Assembly (NCBI GenBank): GCA_903922825.1
Contig: CAIXVE010000044.1
Coordinates: 1-47,656, forward strand
DNA: 47,656 nt
Direction: 5' to 3'
Origin: an uncultured Micrococcales bacterium
GTDB lineage: Bacteria > Actinomycetota > Actinomycetes > Actinomycetales > Microbacteriaceae
Positions 18,630 to 35,625 of this stretch are shown here, in pieces (positions within the stretch are counted from its first letter, which is position 1; every line of letters starts with the position of its first letter). The position numbers were made by a program, and so were the translations under genes. Under the pieces are notes generated by a model, which was not told where the DNA came from, ran no database searches, and was given only the letters and a program-made list of their open reading frames with translations.

Positions 18630-19335
18630 TTCTCAAAAGTCTTTGGATGCCAAACTTAGTCATAAGTAAAAGTGCTTCAACAACAATATTGCTAGACATC
18701 TTTGATGTTCCAATTTCACGTTCAACGAAAGTGATTGGAACTTCCGCAGCACGTCCACCAGCTCTAAGGGTTCTATAAGCCATTTCAATCTGGAAAGAAT
18801 ATCCTCTGGCGTTGATTGATTTGAGGTCAAGCTTCTTCAAGAAACTACAGTCAAACACTCGAAAACCAGCAGTCATGTCGTTTAGTTTTCCACCAAGCAT
18901 TAGTCGTGCATAAATGTTTCCCCCACGCGAGAGCCATTGGCGATGCAGCGGCCAGTTAACTGTCTGTCCACCTTTGACATACCTGGAGCCGATTACTAGA
19001 TCGTTAGAAGGGCAAACCTCCAGAAGTTTTGGTAGGTCAACTGCACGGTGAGAACCATCGGCATCCATCTCAACTACATAGTCGAAACCTTTACCGAATG
19101 CCCAGTTGAATCCGGCGATGTATGCAGCCCCTAGTCCTTCTTTACCTTGACGGTGCAAAACGCTGATGCGTTTGTCTTTCTTGGCAAGGTCATCTGCTAG
19201 TTTTCCTGTGCCGTCAGGACTTGCATCATCAACGATTAGAAGTTCAACATTCTTATTGAATTCAAAAAGCTGATCGACACTTTTATGGATATTGCCTGCC
19301 TCGTTATAGGTGGGCATGATGACTAAGACTTTCAT
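18622..19335 (-). CDS. ppm: Polyprenol monophosphomannose synthase
   Basis: GT2 fold: VIMPTYNEAGNI, LIVDDASPDGTGKLAD, EMDADGSH, DMTAGFRVF; adjacent to lnt as in actinobacteria. Confidence 0.88.
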   Translation of the reverse strand: MKVLVIMPTYNEAGNIHKSVDQLFEFNKNVELLIVDDASPDGTGKLADDLAKKDKRISVLHRQGKEGLGAAYIAGFNWAFGKGFDYVVEMDADGSHRAVDLPKLLEVCPSNDLVIGSRYVKGGQTVNWPLHRQWLSRGGNIYARLMLGGKLNDMTAGFRVFDCSFLKKLDLKSINARGYSFQIEMAYRTLRAGGRAAEVPITFVEREIGTSKMSSNIVVEALLLMTKFGIQRLLRIS

Positions 19336-20921
19336 GCTCTCCTTCTCGCTCTGGCAATGGTTAAGCCAATCAACGCTATCAAGAACAGAGCGATGGCAAA
19401 AACAAAAGCTCCAGCTTCGATATATCTTCCAAAGATAACGGCGGGTGTCTTGTCGCTTCTGAGCGAAATGTTTGCAACCATCGCTGCCGGGGTGAACATT
19501 GGCAGCTCCTTCACAATATGGCCATCAGGGGTATAAATACCTGACAGACCAACAGTTGAAATTGCAACCACAGTTCTACCCGTAACTATTGCTCGCATTC
19601 TTGAAATTCCAGCTAACTGAACTCCCTGTTCGCTTTTACCAAAGTCAGAACTGTTTGTTTGAATCATGATTGCTTGAGCACCATTATCGACAAGGTCGTA
19701 ACCTAATTCGTCAATAGTTGCTTCGAAACAAATAAGTGAACCAACTCGAACATTCTTCTTGATATCGAAAACGCCATCACGAGTACCAGGAGACATATCC
19801 CAACCGATAAGCCCAATCATGTCTGGAGCTAAACCCATGAAGAAAGAACGATAAGGAACGTATTCTCCAAAAGGAACTGGACGTTTCTTGTCATACCAGT
19901 CGGTTAGTCCCTTGACCGGATTCCACAGATCCACTTCATTGAAGTAATCCACTCCCCTGAAAGTCTTATTACCAAAAAGCAAAGGTGCCTTTAGGACTTC
20001 ATTTACGAATATTGTAACTTTCACATTCTCTTCAGCAACGTTTATTGGATCTAGATCTGCAGAGTTTTCCGGCCAGACCATCAAATCTAAGTTCTTTGCT
20101 TTCCCAGATGCGATTAGCTTCTTAGCAACTCTTAGGTGCTTATCCAATATCGACCCTGGTGGGTTGTGAGCAAATAGACCAGCGTTGGCATTTCCTTGAA
20201 CTGCCGCAACTTTCAATGCTCCAGAGGTGGTTGGGCTAGGCAGAACGAAAAGAGCTGGAAGAGTAAAAAATATAAGCCAAGCGGTCAGCGTCGGAGTCCA
20301 AGACTTCACTCGATTTACTATGCCTGACCCTATAGGCAGTGGCGAAAGAACTTGCAGAGCTAGAAGAGCAGAAACAAAAACAATCAGCCAGCTAAGACCG
20401 GCGATGTCTATACCCCAAGCCCATTTGGCTAGAAAATTATCTGCCTGACTAACTCCAATTCTTGCCCAGGGCAATCCTCCAAAAGGAAAATGACTTGAAA
20501 CAAATTCACGTCCGGTGTAGATGCCACCGATTGCAAATGCGACAACCGTGTTTTTCCATGACCCAAGTTTGAGAGTGTTTAGGTAACGCCAAACCACGGC
20601 TATTACGCCAAATGAAATCGCAAAGAAGATTGCTTCCATGAAAGAAAGTGCAAACCAAGGAATTGGACCCAAATATGTAGTTAGCCAAATTAGCACTAAC
20701 CCATAAAAGCTGAAACCTGCAAATAAGCCAAGCCAGAAGGCCTTTAGAAACTTAATGCCTCTAACGGCTAAAACAATAAGAAAAATTCCCAAGAAAGCAC
20801 CAGGAATAAAAGTTATGGCTGGAAAACTTGAGGCTAGCGATAGTCCACCGAGGATAGCAAGTGGCACTCTTGCGAAGAAAGAGTCTGACTGGCTAAAGAA
20901 CCTGAGAATTTTGGACACCAT
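19332..20921 (-). CDS. lnt: Apolipoprotein N-acyltransferase
   Basis: Multi-TM N-terminus plus nitrilase domain (MVWPENSADLDP, KKRPVPFGEYVPYRSF, GSLICFEATIDEL). Confidence 0.93.
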   Translation of the reverse strand: MVSKILRFFSQSDSFFARVPLAILGGLSLASSFPAITFIPGAFLGIFLIVLAVRGIKFLKAFWLGLFAGFSFYGLVLIWLTTYLGPIPWFALSFMEAIFFAISFGVIAVVWRYLNTLKLGSWKNTVVAFAIGGIYTGREFVSSHFPFGGLPWARIGVSQADNFLAKWAWGIDIAGLSWLIVFVSALLALQVLSPLPIGSGIVNRVKSWTPTLTAWLIFFTLPALFVLPSPTTSGALKVAAVQGNANAGLFAHNPPGSILDKHLRVAKKLIASGKAKNLDLMVWPENSADLDPINVAEENVKVTIFVNEVLKAPLLFGNKTFRGVDYFNEVDLWNPVKGLTDWYDKKRPVPFGEYVPYRSFFMGLAPDMIGLIGWDMSPGTRDGVFDIKKNVRVGSLICFEATIDELGYDLVDNGAQAIMIQTNSSDFGKSEQGVQLAGISRMRAIVTGRTVVAISTVGLSGIYTPDGHIVKELPMFTPAAMVANISLRSDKTPAVIFGRYIEAGAFVFAIALFLIALIGLTIARARRRA

Positions 20922-23363
20922 CTAAGCGTAATAGGAGTAAGCGACGATGCCACGTTTGATCTGATCCATAGCCGCTTGAGCAGTCTTACTCAGTTTGTCG
21001 TCGTTTATGTTGGAGATTTGGTCCAGCAGATCGATGGATTGTTTGCACCAGCGAATAAAGTCTCCTGCCAGCATCCCCGTTGCTTTCAGAATTCCATCAA
21101 GTCTGGCCCCCGTTGCCCAGCGATACATCTGCAAAGCCATGGTGGCATCAGGTTCGATGGTAAGAGGTAGGTGATGCTCCTTTGATAACGCTTGAAGTTC
21201 ATCCCAAACTCCAAGAGTCTCATCAAACCTCTCCCCGAACTCACCTCTTGGAAATCTTGGGTTGAGTTCCTCATCATCTCTTCTGGCCTCATAAACAAGT
21301 GCTGCGGCTAAAGCTGCAAAGGTGGCTGCATCTATCCCAGCCCACGTATTTCTTCGCAAGCATTCTGAGACAAGAAGGTCTCGGTCACCATAAATCTTTG
21401 CAAGTTTCAAACCTGCGTCAGTAACTTCCAAGTCATCGTCGTCTTGAACAAGATATCCGAGTTCTAAAAGCATGTCTGACAGGTGATCAAAGGTTTTAGC
21501 CACCTGGTTCGTTCTGGATTCGATCTGTTTGATGATGGTTTGAGTTTCACGGTAAAGCTTGTACCAGCGTTCTGCCCATCTCGAATGTGCTTCACGCTCA
21601 GGGCAACCATGACAAGGATGTGCTCGGAGATCCCTCTTGAGATTTGTGATCTTTAGTTCCTGAGCTCGCATGCCTTTGGTTTGACGTAAGTCATTACGTT
21701 TAGCTTGGCGACCCCAAGTTGCCAGCTCTTTCTCCATGTCGCTGATCTCTCGACGCAATTTGGCATATTCAGTGAAATCGCCGAGATGACATTTCATTGA
21801 TTGTTCATAACCAAATAATGAGGATTGTTTCTCCCTAATTCCTCTGGCTAAGCCAACTACCGATCTGTCGGCTTGGAACTGAGCGAACGAGGTTTCTAAA
21901 ACTTCGCGAGACCTTCGAGCACCAAAAGCTTGAATAAGATTCACAGTCATGTTGAAAGTTGGCTTGAAAGACGAGTTCAATGGGTAGGTTCTTTTTGAGG
22001 CTAAAGATGCAACATAGGTAGGGTCTAGATTGCCAGACCATTGAATAACTGAGTGGCCTTCATGATCAATTCCTCTTCGACCAGCGCGTCCAGTTAGCTG
22101 AGTATATTCACCGGGTGTGATTTGAACTCTTCCTTCACCGTTGAACTTATCTAACCGTTCTAAAACCACAGTTCTAGCCGGCATGTTTATACCTAAAGCT
22201 AAAGTCTCAGTTGCGAAAACAACCTTCACTAGTTTTCTTAGAAAAAGCTCCTCAACAACTTCTTTGAAAGCAGGTAACAAACCAGCGTGATGCGCTGCTA
22301 CCCCTCGTTCAAGAGCATTCAACCACTGGAAGTAGCCCAGAGCAGATAGGTCTTCATCAGGAATGTTTCCACACTTTTCTTCTGCAATACGGCGAATCAG
22401 CTGCTTATCTTCAGGTCTAGTCAACCTGATTCCTGAGGCAAGTACGGCTTGAACTGCCGCTTCACATCCAGCTCTAGAGAAGATAAAGAAAATCGCTGGA
22501 AGTAAATCTGCCTCTTCAAGAATGTCAATCACATCAGGTTTACTTACCCTCGCAATTCGACCCATGTTCCGATCTGGACCCTGATGACCTCTTCGGCCTC
22601 GTATTGGTTTATTTATAGGTTGACGCATCTTGTTTGCATGTCGCTGCACTAGATCAACATTTACTCGGTTGTCATCATCCTTTTCACTAAACAAAGGAAT
22701 AAGGTCATCACCGAAAAGCACATGTTGATTCAGGGGTACCGGTCTAATTTCAGAAACGATGATTGCAGTATCGCCGCGGATTTCATCTAACCAGGCTCCA
22801 AACTCTTCAGCATTTGACACGGTTGCGCTCAGGGAAACAACTTTCACATCTTTAGGTAAATGCAGAATCACTTCTTCCCAAACCGCTCCCCTAAAACGGT
22901 CTGCCAAATAGTGAACTTCATCCATGACTACGAAACCAAGATTCATCAGAGATTCTGAGTTTGCGTAAATCATGTTTCTAAGCACTTCAGTAGTCATAAC
23001 CAAGAACTGTGCATCACTGTTGATGCTTGTGTCACCGGTCAGGAGACCGACTTTCTCAGAACCATAGCGAGTGACCAACTCAGCATATTTTTGATTACTC
23101 AACGCTTTGATAGGCGTTGTATAGAAAACCTTTTGGTTTCTGTCTAATCCCAGATGCATGGCAAATTCACCAACCACTGTTTTACCTGCCCCAGTAGGAG
23201 CTGCAACTAAAACACCCTGACCTCGAAGTAATGCTTGGCAAGCTTTCATTTGAAAATCGTCCATCGGGAATTTCAAAAGAGCAATGAATGAATCCAAAGC
23301 TGGATCTGTGCGATTCTGTTTCGCCCTGGCGTAACGCTCTGCAGGGCTTAGTTCATCGCTCAT
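20922..23363 (-). CDS. helY: DEAD/DEAH-box helicase, HelY/Ski2-Mtr4-like
   Basis: VLVAAPTGAGKTVVGEFA, MDEVHYLADRFRGAVWEEVI, SLSATVSN, ALGINMPARTVV, QLTGRAGRRGID. Confidence 0.93.
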   Translation of the reverse strand: MSDELSPAERYARAKQNRTDPALDSFIALLKFPMDDFQMKACQALLRGQGVLVAAPTGAGKTVVGEFAMHLGLDRNQKVFYTTPIKALSNQKYAELVTRYGSEKVGLLTGDTSINSDAQFLVMTTEVLRNMIYANSESLMNLGFVVMDEVHYLADRFRGAVWEEVILHLPKDVKVVSLSATVSNAEEFGAWLDEIRGDTAIIVSEIRPVPLNQHVLFGDDLIPLFSEKDDDNRVNVDLVQRHANKMRQPINKPIRGRRGHQGPDRNMGRIARVSKPDVIDILEEADLLPAIFFIFSRAGCEAAVQAVLASGIRLTRPEDKQLIRRIAEEKCGNIPDEDLSALGYFQWLNALERGVAAHHAGLLPAFKEVVEELFLRKLVKVVFATETLALGINMPARTVVLERLDKFNGEGRVQITPGEYTQLTGRAGRRGIDHEGHSVIQWSGNLDPTYVASLASKRTYPLNSSFKPTFNMTVNLIQAFGARRSREVLETSFAQFQADRSVVGLARGIREKQSSLFGYEQSMKCHLGDFTEYAKLRREISDMEKELATWGRQAKRNDLRQTKGMRAQELKITNLKRDLRAHPCHGCPEREAHSRWAERWYKLYRETQTIIKQIESRTNQVAKTFDHLSDMLLELGYLVQDDDDLEVTDAGLKLAKIYGDRDLLVSECLRRNTWAGIDAATFAALAAALVYEARRDDEELNPRFPRGEFGERFDETLGVWDELQALSKEHHLPLTIEPDATMALQMYRWATGARLDGILKATGMLAGDFIRWCKQSIDLLDQISNINDDKLSKTAQAAMDQIKRGIVAYSYYA

Positions 23364-24160
23364 TCTGTTACTTCATCAGTAAGGAGGTCCGTGACTAGTT
23401 CATTTTTCTGGCGGGCAGCTCTGCGCTTGTCATTGGCTAAAGCAACTGCTGCTGCCACAAAGTAGAGAACTGTAAGCGGCACCATAAGTAAGAACATAGA
23501 CATCGGATCAGATACCGGTGTTGCGATAGCTCCAATGACGGCGATGATAAAGATCGCTGGTCGCCAACCTTTGAGAATAGTTTTTCCGGAAATCACTCCT
23601 AGCGCGTTTAGAAAAACAAGAATGATCGGCAAAACAAAAGCCAAACCAAAAACGAGTAGAACTCGAACGGCAAACAAAACATATTCCGCGGCATTAATTA
23701 CGTTGGCGGCACCCGGTGGCGTAAATGAAAGCAGGCTTCGAATGAATTCAGGAAATAACCACCAGCCGAACCAAGCCCCAGCCAAGAAAACTGGTGAGCT
23801 TAAAAACAGAAAACCGATTGTGTAACGGCGTTCACGCTTCTTTAGGGCAGGGGTAATAAAGGCTAGAACCTGGTAGAGCCAAACTGGACTAGAAATAAAC
23901 AAGCCAACAAAAAATGCAATTTGAAGGTGAAGGTCAAAAGCCGAAACTACGGAATTGAAGTTAATGGTTGCATTGACATGCTCGTCACGTGCTAAATCAA
24001 TTATTGGCTGTTGCAGGGCTGAGAAAACCTGATCAAAGGTTATCCAGCCAATAATTCCACCACCGACTATGGCAAAAGCTGACTTGAAAAGTCGGTTCCT
24101 AAACTCTCGAAGATGCCCCGAAAGTTTCATTTTCTTTTCGGGGTTACGGCTCCTAGCCAT
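23360..24160 (-). CDS. tatC: Twin-arginine translocase subunit TatC
   Basis: LSGHLREFRNRLFKSAFAI, six TM segments. Confidence 0.95.
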   Translation of the reverse strand: MARSRNPEKKMKLSGHLREFRNRLFKSAFAIVGGGIIGWITFDQVFSALQQPIIDLARDEHVNATINFNSVVSAFDLHLQIAFFVGLFISSPVWLYQVLAFITPALKKRERRYTIGFLFLSSPVFLAGAWFGWWLFPEFIRSLLSFTPPGAANVINAAEYVLFAVRVLLVFGLAFVLPIILVFLNALGVISGKTILKGWRPAIFIIAVIGAIATPVSDPMSMFLLMVPLTVLYFVAAAVALANDKRRAARQKNELVTDLLTDEVTE

Positions 24161-24366
24161 TACTTCTCTTCTTTGGTTTGGTCTTTCTCAACGCTAGTTT
24201 TCTTGTCTTCGGCACGCTCGTCGCCCATTTGCTTCATTTCCTTGCGGAAAATACGCATTGACTGGCCAAGACTCTTTGCAAACCCTGGAAGCTTAGGAGC
24301 TCCCCAGATCACAAGAACCACTAGCACGATGACAATGATGTGCCATCCTTCGAGTCCTCTAAACAT
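24160..24366 (-). CDS. tatA: Twin-arginine translocase subunit TatA
   Basis: GLEGWHIIVIVLVVLVIWGAPKLPGFAKSLGQSMRIFRKEM. Confidence 0.93.
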   Translation of the reverse strand: MFRGLEGWHIIVIVLVVLVIWGAPKLPGFAKSLGQSMRIFRKEMKQMGDERAEDKKTSVEKDQTKEEK

Positions 24367-24377
24367 AACTAGCCTTA

Positions 24378-24605
24378 CTACTCAGATACGGTTTTGTTTC
24401 TAGTTTCCAGCCTACGCTGTCTATCTAGTCTTGAGTGTTTAAGTGCACTCACCTCAAGTTTAAGCCCTTTAACCTTCTGGTTTATCGGGTCAATAGATCT
24501 CATTACTCGTTTAGAAGAAGCCCTTAGCTTGAGGCTAACCCAGAGCAACGCTAAAGCTGAGCAACCGACGACTATGGCTATCACATAAGGCATGAGGTTA
24601 CCCAC
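24378..24605 (-). CDS. Small hypothetical membrane protein (75 aa)
   Basis: Single N-terminal TM then a basic helix; sits between tatA and pafC and overlaps the pafC end by 1 nt. Confidence 0.6.
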   Translation of the reverse strand: MGNLMPYVIAIVVGCSALALLWVSLKLRASSKRVMRSIDPINQKVKGLKLEVSALKHSRLDRQRRLETRNKTVSE

Positions 24606-25600
24606 TATTCGGCGTCCTTAGGAACGGAGCCGATTGAAGGGTTAATGGCTGCCAAAGCAAAGTCTCTAACCGCCTTTTTAGCATCTGCTGGACTGATGAC
24701 CTTAGCGCCTCCCCCGTAACGAGTAACCAAAGGTCCGAGATTTCGAACATCTCCAACTTTGACTGTGAACCTTCTTGAAGTCTTGTTGACCACCACAGTT
24801 TCAGCTATAGGTTTCAGGTCATACATTAGGCCATACGCGCCTGGTTCAACTTCGAGGACAACCTCTATGTCGTTATCAGAGGGAACATATATTTCATCCT
24901 GAAGTTCTGCTTGTTTCGCAGCTTCACTTATTGGAACATCCGGAAGGATAACTGTGTTTCGCATACGGTCAATCCTGAAGGATCTGAGTGCCTGTTTCTG
25001 CTGGCACCAACCCCGAAGATAAATCAGCTCGCTTTGTGGATCAATTCTTAGTGGTTCAATTACTCGACCAATCGAGGTAACACCTTTATTGTCTTGGTAA
25101 TCGCATTTGATAGCGACACCTTTGTTTATTGCTTGGCGAAGAATTCTGATGTCAAGATCAATACCAATCGGGTTTATCTTTATTTCTGGAGCCTGTGTCT
25201 TATCGAAACCACTAGCAATTATTTTTTGCAGAGTTTCAATCTCATCGCTGTCGGCCAGCCCCGGAATTGACTTGAGATACACCAACCCCGCAGCCAAGGC
25301 TGATGCCTGACGTGCTGAAAGTCTTGGAACTTCCTTTAGAGACATCTTTTCTTTGTAGTTGACAGCAACGTTCCCATCTTCAAGTTCATCGAAGTCAATT
25401 CCATATGGTGAATGGTGGTTTATTTCAATAAACCCCAAGTTCTTCACAGCGTTTGTGATTTCAACTTCTGGAACCTTGAAATGCTTTGCAAGTTCAGGAA
25501 CATCATATTCAGCGCCATCAATTAGATTGCCAACCAGGGCAAGCATGAGGTTGAAACGATCAGAATCAGTAAGTTTTCTTGGCTCACGCATGATCATCAA
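24605..25600 (-). CDS. pafC: WYL-domain transcriptional regulator PafC
   Basis: HTH plus WYL region (EPLRIDPQSELIYLRGWCQQKQALRSFRIDRM), next to tatA as in actinobacteria. Confidence 0.9.
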   Translation of the reverse strand: MMIMREPRKLTDSDRFNLMLALVGNLIDGAEYDVPELAKHFKVPEVEITNAVKNLGFIEINHHSPYGIDFDELEDGNVAVNYKEKMSLKEVPRLSARQASALAAGLVYLKSIPGLADSDEIETLQKIIASGFDKTQAPEIKINPIGIDLDIRILRQAINKGVAIKCDYQDNKGVTSIGRVIEPLRIDPQSELIYLRGWCQQKQALRSFRIDRMRNTVILPDVPISEAAKQAELQDEIYVPSDNDIEVVLEVEPGAYGLMYDLKPIAETVVVNKTSRRFTVKVGDVRNLGPLVTRYGGGAKVISPADAKKAVRDFALAAINPSIGSVPKDAE

Positions 25601-26588
25601 CCACTTTTTTATATCCAGCTTGAACCAAATCGTCTAGCTCTTTGGGCTCTAAGACTTCTATTTGACCTGGGTATTCACGAATCTGTTCTGCTAAAACGAA
25701 CTTGTCGTAATAGCGAAGAGTTACTACATCTTTAGCTTTTTGCTCGTTCAATTTAGTTTCGTATTTAAACCAAGCAGCAGTGTCCGGTTTGATTCTAATT
25801 TTAGCAATTTGCTTATCAGCGAATTTCTCTAAATCCTCAGTTGCTTTCTGAATCGCTTCGGTGCTTGGCGCATCAAAGGGTGCACTGTTTGCTGACACAA
25901 TAACTCGGCTAATCATTCGTCTGAGCATAAAGTTGCGTGCCTCCTTGTTCTTTTGGTCAAAACCTAAAACTACCCACTGCCCATCCAGATGCTGAATCAA
26001 CCATGGTTCAACTGAACGAGTTTCTATGACTCCAGTATTTGGGTTTCGATAATCAAACTTGATGACTCTCAAATCTGAAATAGCGTTGTTTATTTCACGG
26101 AAGTTAGGTTCATGTTCGATTATTCGAGGTGCGATACCGACAATGTCAGAGTCCTCACCGACAACTCCCATAGATCGAAGTTTCACAATTCCTTTGTTGG
26201 CGGCAGTTGAAAGCGATCCTCCAGCCCAAGCTTCTGCGGCTAGGGTTAGAAGGGCAAGCTGCCTGGCTGTCAATTGGATGTTTTCCGGCCAGGTGAAATC
26301 TGATTTCTTGATCACATAGACAGTAGCCTGATTGTTCTCATCTTCGTGAGCTGGGATGACTGCCTCAGCGATTATTCCGTTGTGCTTCAGAGTCGTCTTA
26401 TCTCTTTCAAACTTTCTTTCAAGAGATTTATTGTTACCGTTTGGCTTGTAGTCGGCCATGTAACCAGGAATTGAACTCAGAATCTGATGTTTGGAAAGTC
26501 CAACTTTTGAATATAAAAGCGCACAGGTCAGCGCAAAGAGCCGCTCAGGTCTAGAGATTTTATATTTAGCAACAGACTTATCCGCCAT
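25584..26588 (-). CDS. pafB: WYL-domain transcriptional regulator PafB
   Basis: ISRPERLFALTCALLYSKVGLSKHQIL HTH; VEPWLIQHLDGQWVVLGFDQKNKEARNFMLRRM WYL domain. ATG 26588 preferred to the ORF-track start 26621, which would overlap the FKBP gene. Confidence 0.88.
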   Translation of the reverse strand: MADKSVAKYKISRPERLFALTCALLYSKVGLSKHQILSSIPGYMADYKPNGNNKSLERKFERDKTTLKHNGIIAEAVIPAHEDENNQATVYVIKKSDFTWPENIQLTARQLALLTLAAEAWAGGSLSTAANKGIVKLRSMGVVGEDSDIVGIAPRIIEHEPNFREINNAISDLRVIKFDYRNPNTGVIETRSVEPWLIQHLDGQWVVLGFDQKNKEARNFMLRRMISRVIVSANSAPFDAPSTEAIQKATEDLEKFADKQIAKIRIKPDTAAWFKYETKLNEQKAKDVVTLRYYDKFVLAEQIREYPGQIEVLEPKELDDLVQAGYKKVVDDHA

Positions 26589-26598
26589 TGTCGAAGTT

Positions 26599-27561
26599 TT
26601 ACTTACCCTTTCCAAGGACATCGATCACAAACAATAAAGTTGCATTCGCTGGAATGCTTCCCTGTCCAGATGCACCATAAGCATATTCAGGCGGGATGCT
26701 TGCGATGACTTGCGAACCAACTTTCACATCAGTCAGAGCCATAGCGAAACCTTTGATTGTTCCACCAGCAAGATTTAAAGTTGCTGGTTGAGAATCCCAA
26801 GAAGATTCAACCGAGCCACCAAGAGCAGAAGTCCAATCCCAAAGTGTGTAGTTCACAGTCACAGTGTCGGTTGCCTTAACAGTTTCACCTTTACCTTCGA
26901 TTACTACAGCCGACTTAAACTCTTTGGGAGCACTAAATGAAGGTGTGACCAAACCTGGTCTACCAGTTTTAGGATCTCTAACAACCTGTGGCAATCCACT
27001 TACAGGTGCTTGAACATCACCGTTAGCGTGCGGCAGATTTACTTTATTGATTTTGAAAATGTATAGAGAGCCACCTGGGTTTGATGCGTTGGCTGGAACC
27101 GCAAGTGCAGCTACCGAACCCTCTTTGACGCCAGATAGAGCATTACAGAAAACCGGATAGGTCTTTGTGTCAACGAGAATCGCTTGAGAGTCAGTTCCAT
27201 TGAAAGCATTTGATCCAAGAAGTTTTCCGGTTGATGAAGAGTAAATCGCGTAATCCACTGAAAGTAATTCATTGCCAGTAAATACAGGTCCACTTCCCTC
27301 AGAGACCAGCTTTGTTTCTGGCTTGGTGATTTTAGAAAGTTGGGATGCAAAGCTCACACCTGCTGATGCGTTAGCGAAATCAACTGTCGGTGCTCCTGTG
27401 CTATTGGTGGTCACCTGAACTGCATCAATGGCACTACCACCGACAAAGTGGTCACATGCGGCCGTTATGCCACTGAAGGCATCCTGCGCTCCAGTACTGG
27501 AGCAGCCTGCTAGAAGGCCAACTATGGCAAGAGTTAGAGATGGAATTCTGATTTTGTGCAC
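26599..27561 (-). CDS. FKBP-type peptidyl-prolyl cis-trans isomerase, lipoprotein
   Basis: Lipobox LLAGCSS; C-terminal GGTIKGFAMALTDVKVGSQVIASIPPEYAYGASGQGSIPANATLLFVIDVL; GTG start. Confidence 0.92.
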   Translation of the reverse strand: MHKIRIPSLTLAIVGLLAGCSSTGAQDAFSGITAACDHFVGGSAIDAVQVTTNSTGAPTVDFANASAGVSFASQLSKITKPETKLVSEGSGPVFTGNELLSVDYAIYSSSTGKLLGSNAFNGTDSQAILVDTKTYPVFCNALSGVKEGSVAALAVPANASNPGGSLYIFKINKVNLPHANGDVQAPVSGLPQVVRDPKTGRPGLVTPSFSAPKEFKSAVVIEGKGETVKATDTVTVNYTLWDWTSALGGSVESSWDSQPATLNLAGGTIKGFAMALTDVKVGSQVIASIPPEYAYGASGQGSIPANATLLFVIDVLGKGK

Positions 27562-27591
27562 TTGTTCCGCTTTCTTTGTTGAACCTTAAGT

Positions 27592-28581
27592 TTAGTCCTG
27601 GTTTGGGTCGGAACCACCGACAATTGAGTCAGCGGCTCTTTGTGCAGCTCGAAGTGACTTACGCACCTTTTTCTCGCTAACCTTGCGCTCCCCTAGATGT
27701 TCAGGGTTCCAAACGGCTATGTCCTCATCATCAAACTCAGGTTTAGCCTTTCTAACAAAGGACGGCAGCACTGTTCCTGGAGCCAGTTTCCTTGTGGTTA
27801 GAAGGAAGCCAGTGTGTCCTGACATGCGATGTTCCGGTCTAACGGCGAGTCCTTGCAGATGCCAGCCTCGAAATAGAGTCTCAAAAGCTTCTGGCTCAGT
27901 GAAAAGGCCTGATGATCGAATGTCTTCGGCAACTCGGGAAAGCTGAGTGACAGTTGCCACGTAGCAAACTAAAACTCCTCCTGGCTCTAAAACCTTGCTC
28001 ACTTCATCCAAACACTCCCACGGAGCAAGCATGTCTAAGACGACTCGATCAACACTCTGCGGCTTAATTTCCTTAGGTAATTCTTCTTGAAGGCTGCCAA
28101 CCTTGATTTCCCAGTTCTCCGGAAGATATCCAAAAGCCGCGGTGACGTTTGCCTGAGCTATCTCTGCAAAGTCAGATCTTCGTTCAAATGAGGTTAGAGA
28201 GCCTGAAGGTCCTATCGCTCTAAGCAAATACATGCTCAAAGCACCTGAACCAACTCCCGCTTCCACAACCCTTGCTCCAGGAAAAATATCTCCCATCGTT
28301 ACGATGTTGGCAGCATCCTTTGGATAAACAATTGCTGCTCCCCTGGGCATTGATAAAACAAAATCGGTTTGCAGTGGTCGCAGGACTAAGTATTCAATCC
28401 CTGCTTCGCTCCTAATGACAGACCCGTCAGGTAAACCGATAATGTCATCGTGTTTCACATTGCCGCGATGAGTTCCAAACACTGCACCAGTTGCCAAAGT
28501 TATGGTGTTCAGTCTTCCCTTTGGGCCGGTTAGTTGAACTCGTTCCCCAGCCTGAAAAACTCCACGTAGTGCTCTAGCCAT
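27592..28581 (-). CDS. trmI: tRNA (adenine-58-N1)-methyltransferase TrmI
   Basis: IVYPKDAANIVTMGDIFPGARVVEAGVGSGALSMYLLRAIGPSGSLTSFERR; DRVVLDMLAPWE. Confidence 0.93.
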   Translation of the reverse strand: MARALRGVFQAGERVQLTGPKGRLNTITLATGAVFGTHRGNVKHDDIIGLPDGSVIRSEAGIEYLVLRPLQTDFVLSMPRGAAIVYPKDAANIVTMGDIFPGARVVEAGVGSGALSMYLLRAIGPSGSLTSFERRSDFAEIAQANVTAAFGYLPENWEIKVGSLQEELPKEIKPQSVDRVVLDMLAPWECLDEVSKVLEPGGVLVCYVATVTQLSRVAEDIRSSGLFTEPEAFETLFRGWHLQGLAVRPEHRMSGHTGFLLTTRKLAPGTVLPSFVRKAKPEFDDEDIAVWNPEHLGERKVSEKKVRKSLRAAQRAADSIVGGSDPNQD

Positions 28582-29237
28582 TACAGCAACTTCCTTAGCT
28601 TTTTATAGGTGACACCTTCGAGAGTTTCCCAAAGAATACGTCCAGGTTTTGCTGGCAACTCAATAACGTGAGGAATACCTATCGCGTAGGTGCCAGCAGC
28701 CTCAGCAGAGCTGAGTCCTGAAATGCTGTCTTCAAAAGCTATGCATCGGTTCGGTTCAAATCCAAGCTGCTCGGCTGCCTTCAAATAAGCCTCAGGATGA
28801 GGTTTCCCATGCCTGACATCATCGCCAGCAATAATAAGATCAAAGGCATCAAAATCTATGGCATCAACTACTTGCTTTGCCATCCGGTGTAAAGACATGG
28901 TTACCAGAGCTGTTGGAACTCCATGTTTTCTTAAGTCAAATAAAAGTTCTTTTGCTCCTGGCCGCCAAGGAATCGATTTGGCTAGTCGTTCTTGGACCTC
29001 ATTTGTTAATCTGGTTACTATTTCTTCGGGTTCAAGCGGCACATTGGTTCGATCCTTGAAAAGTTGTGAAGATTTATCAAGACTCATGCCAACCACGTCT
29101 AAACCGTCTTGATCAGTCCAAACACCATTGTGTTCGCTAGCAAGCGCTCTTTCACTCTGAATCCAATAAGGTTCAGAGTCTATGAGGGTTCCATCCATGT
29201 CAAAAAGCACGGCAAAGGGGCGTTTAATTCCAAACAT
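28581..29237 (-). CDS. HAD family phosphatase
   Basis: AVLFDMDGTLIDSEPYW, GDDVRHGKPHPEAYLKAAEQL, AFEDSISGLSSAEAAG. ATG 29237 preferred over TTG 29246. Confidence 0.9.
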   Translation of the reverse strand: MFGIKRPFAVLFDMDGTLIDSEPYWIQSERALASEHNGVWTDQDGLDVVGMSLDKSSQLFKDRTNVPLEPEEIVTRLTNEVQERLAKSIPWRPGAKELLFDLRKHGVPTALVTMSLHRMAKQVVDAIDFDAFDLIIAGDDVRHGKPHPEAYLKAAEQLGFEPNRCIAFEDSISGLSSAEAAGTYAIGIPHVIELPAKPGRILWETLEGVTYKKLRKLL

Positions 29238-29304
29238 TATGCCCAAAGTCTAATCTGCAGTTATGAATTAGAGTTCTATCTAGAGCATCTAGCAATGAAA
29301 TGGT

Positions 29305-34870: not shown

Positions 34871-34893
34871 TTGTCAGTGTCGAGAAGTAGTCT
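34871..34893 (+). promoter_or_regulatory. RecA-NDp / PafBC-type DNA-damage promoter of the DnaQ-like exonuclease
   Basis: TTGTCAGTG (34871-34879), N8, TAGTCT (34888-34893), then 6 nt to ATG 34900. Confidence 0.75.
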
Positions 34894-34899
34894 GGTTCC

Positions 34900-35625
34900 A
34901 TGAATGAGAAATTGGCTTTACCGGAATGGCTAAACGTTGTTGCTGTCTTTGACACAGAAACAACAGGATTGATACTCGACCAATCAAGGATCGTAACCGC
35001 TGCTATCCACTTGGTGGATGTGAATGGAAAAGTACTTGAAGGCGGTAAAGATTGGCTATTAAATCCAGGGGTTCCTATCCCCCCAGAAGCAAGTGAAGTA
35101 CACAAGGTTTATGACAAAGACGTTGTAAATGCTCAGGATGCTGCTTCTGGAGTCAAGGAAATTGTCACGACTATTCAAGAGTATTTTGATCAGGGAATTC
35201 CAGTCTTGGCTTATAACGCTCCTTATGACTTTACGATTTTGCACTACGAAGCGAAACGACATGGAATTGATCCAGTCAAGTTTGGTTACGTAATTGATCC
35301 GCTTGTAATCGATAAGACCATAGATAAGTTTCGCAAAGGTAAGCGCACTCTAGCTGCTGCTGCCGAAAGATATGGCGTTAGTCTTGAGAACGCCCACACT
35401 GCAGCTGATGATGCCATTGCAGCCGGTCAGGTTGGTTTAGCGATGATGCGTTTTTATCAGGCGCTGAATGATCCAAAATTTCCCTTTCCAGGTTCACTTG
35501 AGGAACTGCACGAGTTTCAAGCTAAATGGGCAGATGAAAATGAGAAGAGTTACGCGCAGTGGCGTCAGAAGGATTATCCAAACTATAAACCTACTTACGG
35601 TTGGCCAGTCAAGAAACTTGATTAA
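34900..35625 (+). CDS. DnaQ-like 3'-5' exonuclease
   Basis: VFDTETTGLILDQSRIVTAAI (ExoI), LAYNAPYDFTILHYE (ExoII), NAHTAADDAIAAGQ (ExoIII). Confidence 0.92.
   Translation: MNEKLALPEWLNVVAVFDTETTGLILDQSRIVTAAIHLVDVNGKVLEGGKDWLLNPGVPIPPEASEVHKVYDKDVVNAQDAASGVKEIVTTIQEYFDQGIPVLAYNAPYDFTILHYEAKRHGIDPVKFGYVIDPLVIDKTIDKFRKGKRTLAAAAERYGVSLENAHTAADDAIAAGQVGLAMMRFYQALNDPKFPFPGSLEELHEFQAKWADENEKSYAQWRQKDYPNYKPTYGWPVKKLD

Follow-up and report, generated by a model that had tools for sequence, protein, structure and literature searches.

A predicted PafBC-dependent, leaderless promoter of a stand-alone DnaQ-like exonuclease gene in an uncultured Micrococcales bacterium

A candidate promoter directly upstream of an exonuclease gene

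In the genome of an uncultured Micrococcales bacterium, a stand-alone DnaQ-like exonuclease gene is preceded by a short site resembling the mycobacterial RecA-NDp promoters, which raises the question of whether this gene is controlled by the DNA-damage regulator PafBC. The window referred to below is the whole stretch of DNA analyzed (47,656 nt), and its relevant features are as follows.

34871 to 34879, plus strand: putative PafBC -26 element TTGTCAGTG (upstream half of RecA-NDp), from direct reading, with the TGTC core conserved
34888 to 34893, plus strand: -10 hexamer TAGTCT, 8 nt 3' of the -26 element
34900 to 34902, plus strand: ATG start codon and predicted transcription start (leaderless mRNA), 6 nt past the -10 box
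34900 to 35625, plus strand: stand-alone DnaQ-like DEDDh exonuclease of 241 aa (NF005927/PRK07942), from profile score and catalytic motifs
25584 to 26621, minus strand: pafB, whose product would read the -26 element, from its 6sj9 match and its WYL and WCX domains
24605 to 25600, minus strand: pafC, partner of PafB, from HTH_PafC, WYL and WCX domains and its 6sj9 match

Direct reading of the site (34871-34893) revealed TTGTCAGTG, 8 nt (tcgagaag) and TAGTCT at 34888, followed by 6 nt (ggttcc) and the ATG at 34900, which bears out the sequence-only reading of an exact RecA-NDp/PafBC promoter match 6 nt before that ATG. The motif TTGTCRGTG-N8-TANNNT, searched with zero mismatches, has a single match in the whole window, namely the exonuclease site, against a chance expectation (from base counts) of 0.011 per window and 0.29 per genome. 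Allowing two mismatches gave 8 matches versus 6.6 expected, so degenerate matches alone carry no meaning. The feature that marks membership in this promoter type (i.e., TGTC at -26 as the core, at a set distance from TANNNT) is present, and the site also fits the RNA-seq-based Mycobacterium tuberculosis motif TGTC(GG/AG/AC)-N10-TANNNT (PMC8151990). We searched the site for a -35 hexamer at 16-18 nt spacing, or any sigma-70-type pair, and found neither. As a consensus, TTGTCRGTG is mycobacterial: it is exact in the window and at L020, a locus from a Micrococcales MAG whose exonuclease is 84% identical to that of the window, but elsewhere in the genus conservation is limited to the TGTC core, the spacing and the TANNNT box, whereas the bases after TGTC (the RGTG half) vary.

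The predicted exonuclease scored 215.3 bits against NF005927/PRK07942, above the curated NCBIfam cut-off of 186, matched the RNase_T domain (2.1e-15), and carries all of the DEDDh catalytic motifs (i.e., FDTETTG [17], NAPYDF [106] and HTAADDA [166]). Its reading frame is open from 34900 to 35625, and the closest upstream in-frame stop is the TAG inside the -10 box, so that no start codon is possible upstream of the promoter. Together with the 6-nt distance from the -10 box to the ATG, this stop fits a predicted transcription start at the start codon. The leaderless arrangement, likewise anticipated from the sequence, is further favored by the start codon lying 6-7 nt past the -10 box nearly everywhere that the site occurs, across genera. 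The upstream neighbor of the gene is a divergent alpha/beta hydrolase gene.

PafBC and the wider set of candidate sites

The window also encodes the putative regulator. The sequence-only reading had placed pafB and pafC at 24605-26588; we located both there, with slightly different ends, as adjacent genes on the minus strand. The pafB product matched the solved PafBC structure 6sj9 across its PafB part (E 4.7e-31), the pafC product matched HTH_PafC (1.1e-11) and the PafC part of 6sj9 (E 3e-17), and both also matched chains in two later entries, 7p5x and 9fnd. HTH_PafC was detected in 42 of 42 genomes tried, and above the cut-off in 41; within the genus its scores (46-63 bits) are below those in larger genomes. 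A correlation between presence of the motif and presence of PafC was rejected as a line of evidence, since PafC is nearly ubiquitous and affords no contrast. The bacterium's own genome also encodes LexA, as do 38 of the 40 genomes in which it was sought; PafBC would accordingly work beside SOS as a second pathway. The pafBC neighborhood (window 19332-29246) comprises a TrmI-like methyltransferase, FKBP, pafB, pafC, tatC and a DSHCT helicase, and none of the ORFs examined in that interval is a pafA, pup or proteasome gene; from this gene order, the partners in pupylation that normally accompany PafBC seem to be missing beside it.

The own genome (1.22 Mb, 105 contigs, 86% complete) was sampled for a regulon by motif searches. 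The exact motif is present twice (0.29 expected); one-mismatch matches number 19, compared with 14 in the control, and those to WTGTC-N12-TAGNNT 15, compared with 14. Accordingly, the genome scan suggested by the sequence-only reading disclosed no large exact-motif regulon, the exact motif being scarcely enriched, and with so few sites we rejected such a scan as proof of a regulon. The second exact match (C51:5125) was dropped as a target; a possible start of an unnamed ORF follows it after 1 nt. The same reading had called for a scan upstream of recA, and in the window's own subclade recA proved to lack the -26 element: at all five loci (L095, L084, L092, L090 and L082) TAGTGTC is retained and TGTC at the expected offset is lost, whereas the recA TGTC element is present in most other genus members and relatives. 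A TGTC-N12-TAARTT-like site lies ~850 nt upstream at the subclade recA loci.

Across 26 genus genomes, TGTC-N12-TAGNCT-N6-RTG occurs 55 times versus once in the reversed control; part of this excess is the leaderless -10 arrangement itself. More specifically, T-anchored TAGNCT positioned 6 nt before ATG or GTG was found 222 times in 8 genomes, compared with 82 in the reversed control. TGTC stands 28 nt before 22 of these 222 leaderless starts (3.5 expected; 6-fold among T-anchored 4-mers), one of the 22 cases being possibly a contig-end duplicate. With the exonuclease excluded, TGTC was still over-represented 4-fold (14/214) when the -10 arrangement was held fixed.

The genus genes with leaderless TGTC-N12-TAGNCT sites are presumably dnaX (the most frequent), polA, ligA, uvrA, clpX, ftsH, birA and serS, names that were assigned from sequence by general family knowledge rather than by family search. 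Those in the own genome we take to be the exonuclease, ligA, a biotin-ligase-like gene and a site-2-protease-like gene. The arrangement was seen at dnaX, the gamma/tau clamp-loader gene (L056, L061, L063, L064, L069, L077, L079, L163, L166, L171, L173 and L176), which on this pattern is a possible further PafBC target; at ligA in the own genome, G022 and G015 (L160, L072 and L078); and, in several genus members, at clpX (L054, L175 and L177) and ftsH (L062, L170 and L174). The site-2-protease-like gene of the own genome (L006, with an HELGH motif) has ATGTCAGTG-N8-TAGGTT 6 nt before its ATG.

Conservation of the site and its agreement with recA promoters

Conservation in close relatives had been named as a check on the promoter, and the site is indeed kept: among 25 genus genomes, 22 carry TGTC-N12-TANNNT ahead of the exonuclease orthologue (PRK07942), with 6-7 nt between the site and the start. 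The remaining orthologues have CGTC (G024) or no site (G003 and G012). In most genus orthologues the -10 box is TAGYCT, and in nearly all the start codon follows 6 nt on. All five genomes of the window's subclade retain the site, as does L020. When the window is set against L020, identity is 96% over the 23-nt motif, compared with 33% over the 6-nt spacer and 49% over the 51 nt upstream (ungapped).

To compare these promoters with those of recA, we used a weight matrix trained on 20 recA promoters from the genus and order, with no exonuclease promoter in the training set. In most genus orthologues the top-scoring position of this matrix was the predicted site, usually at a shuffle p of zero or close to it. 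Of 80 genomes searched in the family, almost every one from a genus of its own, 78 have the exonuclease gene above the cut-off, and 75 upstream regions were read. At a threshold of 5 bits, the recA-trained matrix found a site of at least that score in 55 of these 75 orthologues (~70 genera), versus 2.3% of shuffles, and nearly always in the leaderless position; for about a quarter of the 75 upstream regions it found no site. The TGTC core stands at this offset in 37/75 and exact TGTC-N12-TANNNT in 35/75, with a start codon 5-8 nt past the -10 box in 34 of the latter.

Similar sites occur in more distant lineages. In f32, a distant family with genomes of 6-10 Mb, TGTCAGTG precedes the exonuclease in 11 of 11 genomes, the 12-nt spacing being maintained and the -10 box degenerate (GANNGT or CANNNT, not TANNNT); the site lies ~40-50 nt before the matched domain, and so the gene is not leaderless there. 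The f32 recA promoters read RTTGTCAGTGGC-N6-TAGCGT, or near it, in 10 of 10 readable cases. In those f1 genomes that measure 3-4 Mb, GATGTCGG precedes both the exonuclease and recA, and leaderless sites were found at an f6 orthologue (CTGTCGGTG) and an f12 orthologue (GGTCGGTG). No site was found upstream of the f38, f20, f45 and f31 orthologues, though PafC occurs in genomes of those four families. Where compared, the lineage variant of the exonuclease site is that of recA in the same genomes, and this lineage-by-lineage match is the best evidence that one factor would read both promoters. Such agreement, and conservation far outside the genus, support the PafBC reading.

Weighing the explanations, and comparison with known PafBC systems

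These data point to 34871-34893 as, most probably, a PafBC-dependent RecA-NDp-type promoter of the stand-alone DnaQ-like 3'-5' exonuclease. Could it instead be an ordinary leaderless promoter that the housekeeping sigma factor uses constitutively, in which only the -10 box counts, TTGTCA being either a poor -35 box or a chance occurrence? TAGNCT 6 nt before a start codon is common in the genus, as counted above, which would suit such a promoter. We rejected the -26 element as a -35 box, since the spacer would be 11 nt and there is no sigma-70-type pair at the site; moreover, TGTC is at its offset in 22/25 exonuclease promoters compared with only ~10% of T-anchored leaderless promoters, and a matrix trained on recA finds the site across some 70 genera. 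A constitutive promoter is therefore very unlikely. There is next to no chance that TGTC is kept merely through overlap with the end of an upstream gene. The -26 element does overlap the stop codon of a metF-like gene (C-terminus ..GLC-stop) in several relatives (G006, G017, G007 and G009; loci L028, L034, L035 and L041), but the site is there nonetheless in the window, at L020 and in many other genomes with no metF end before it, and coding constraint does not account for the fixed distance of TGTC to the -10 box and start codon. For the window, where the divergent hydrolase gene lies upstream, metF overlap is refuted as the cause of conservation.

A relic is also very unlikely, i.e., ancestral PafBC control in a subclade that is losing the regulon, with weak or no function of the site here. 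The loss of the -26 element at the subclade recA, the slight enrichment in own-genome scans and the lower HTH_PafC scores in the genus would all agree with decay, but each of the five subclade genomes retains the exonuclease site, as does L020; from the window to L020 this site changes far less than the sequence on either side; and a leaderless TGTC site survives before ligA both in the own genome and in G022. The preferred reading is that the gene very likely encodes a damage-inducible, leaderless, PafBC-activated DEDDh 3'-5' exonuclease, and would be a long-standing part of the PafBC regulon in actinobacteria. The earlier placing of the exonuclease in a PafBC "mutagenesis or repair regulon" is supported as to PafBC, with the corrections given above; the mutagenesis part is without support, as nothing favors mutagenesis over repair.

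In mycobacteria, PafBC is activated by single-stranded DNA as its ligand and adapts the housekeeping holoenzyme, with PafB in contact with the -26 element (PMC11804915). By analogy, DNA damage would yield single-stranded DNA that binds the PafBC WYL domains, and PafBC would join the housekeeping RNA polymerase holoenzyme. PafB would then read TGTC at -26, an element that substitutes for a -35 box, while the sigma factor reads TAGTCT, and the resulting mRNA, begun on the A of ATG 34900 or right beside it, would have no leader. The DEDDh exonuclease would trim 3' ends or single strands in repair. This scheme carries the mycobacterial mechanism over to the present bacterium by inference, as regards the binding of PafBC, induction by damage, the transcription start and the part of the enzyme in repair. 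Since one of the oldest conserved PafBC targets would be an enzyme possibly able to digest single-stranded DNA, a feedback loop is conceivable, though unlikely, in which single-stranded DNA switches on PafBC and the exonuclease digests it, removing the inducing signal and ending the response.

By its promoter structure, the exonuclease gene is a predicted new target for a promoter type already known, and the conservation is unusually broad. We found no paper linking PafBC with the PRK07942 exonuclease, the single "dnaQ" match being a network list, in a search that covered published regulon lists incompletely; our priority in placing it in the PafBC regulon is not certain. If mycobacteria lack the PRK07942 subfamily, mycobacterial regulon studies would miss the gene. 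A 2022 study of Streptomyces venezuelae did not, in its initial search, find the mycobacterial PafBC motif conserved (PMC9380542), a point on which the f32 motif before recA, and its -26 half before the exonuclease, bear.

By score and motifs the window protein belongs to PRK07942/NF005927, the "DNA polymerase III subunit epsilon" family. That name implies replicative proofreading, whereas the promoter suggests a damage role instead; a widespread actinobacterial "epsilon subunit" would thus be placed in the PafBC damage response rather than in routine replication. The same promoter type is known outside mycobacteria in Streptomyces coelicolor, where RecA-NDp promoters precede recA and SCO6735, the latter reported to be UV-inducible (PMC5087735); SCO6735 is a macrodomain hydrolase, unlike the DnaQ-like gene of the window, which gets no mention in the passages of that report consulted here. 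With the mycobacterial RecA-NDp/PafBC promoters (recA and the PafBC regulon), the window site shares the TGTC core, the 12 nt from TGTC to TANNNT, the lack of a -35 box, a PafBC encoded in the genome and a position before a DNA-repair-type gene. It differs from them in its target gene, in the variable bases after TGTC within the genus, in the predicted leaderless arrangement, and in the window having no pafA or pup gene beside pafBC.
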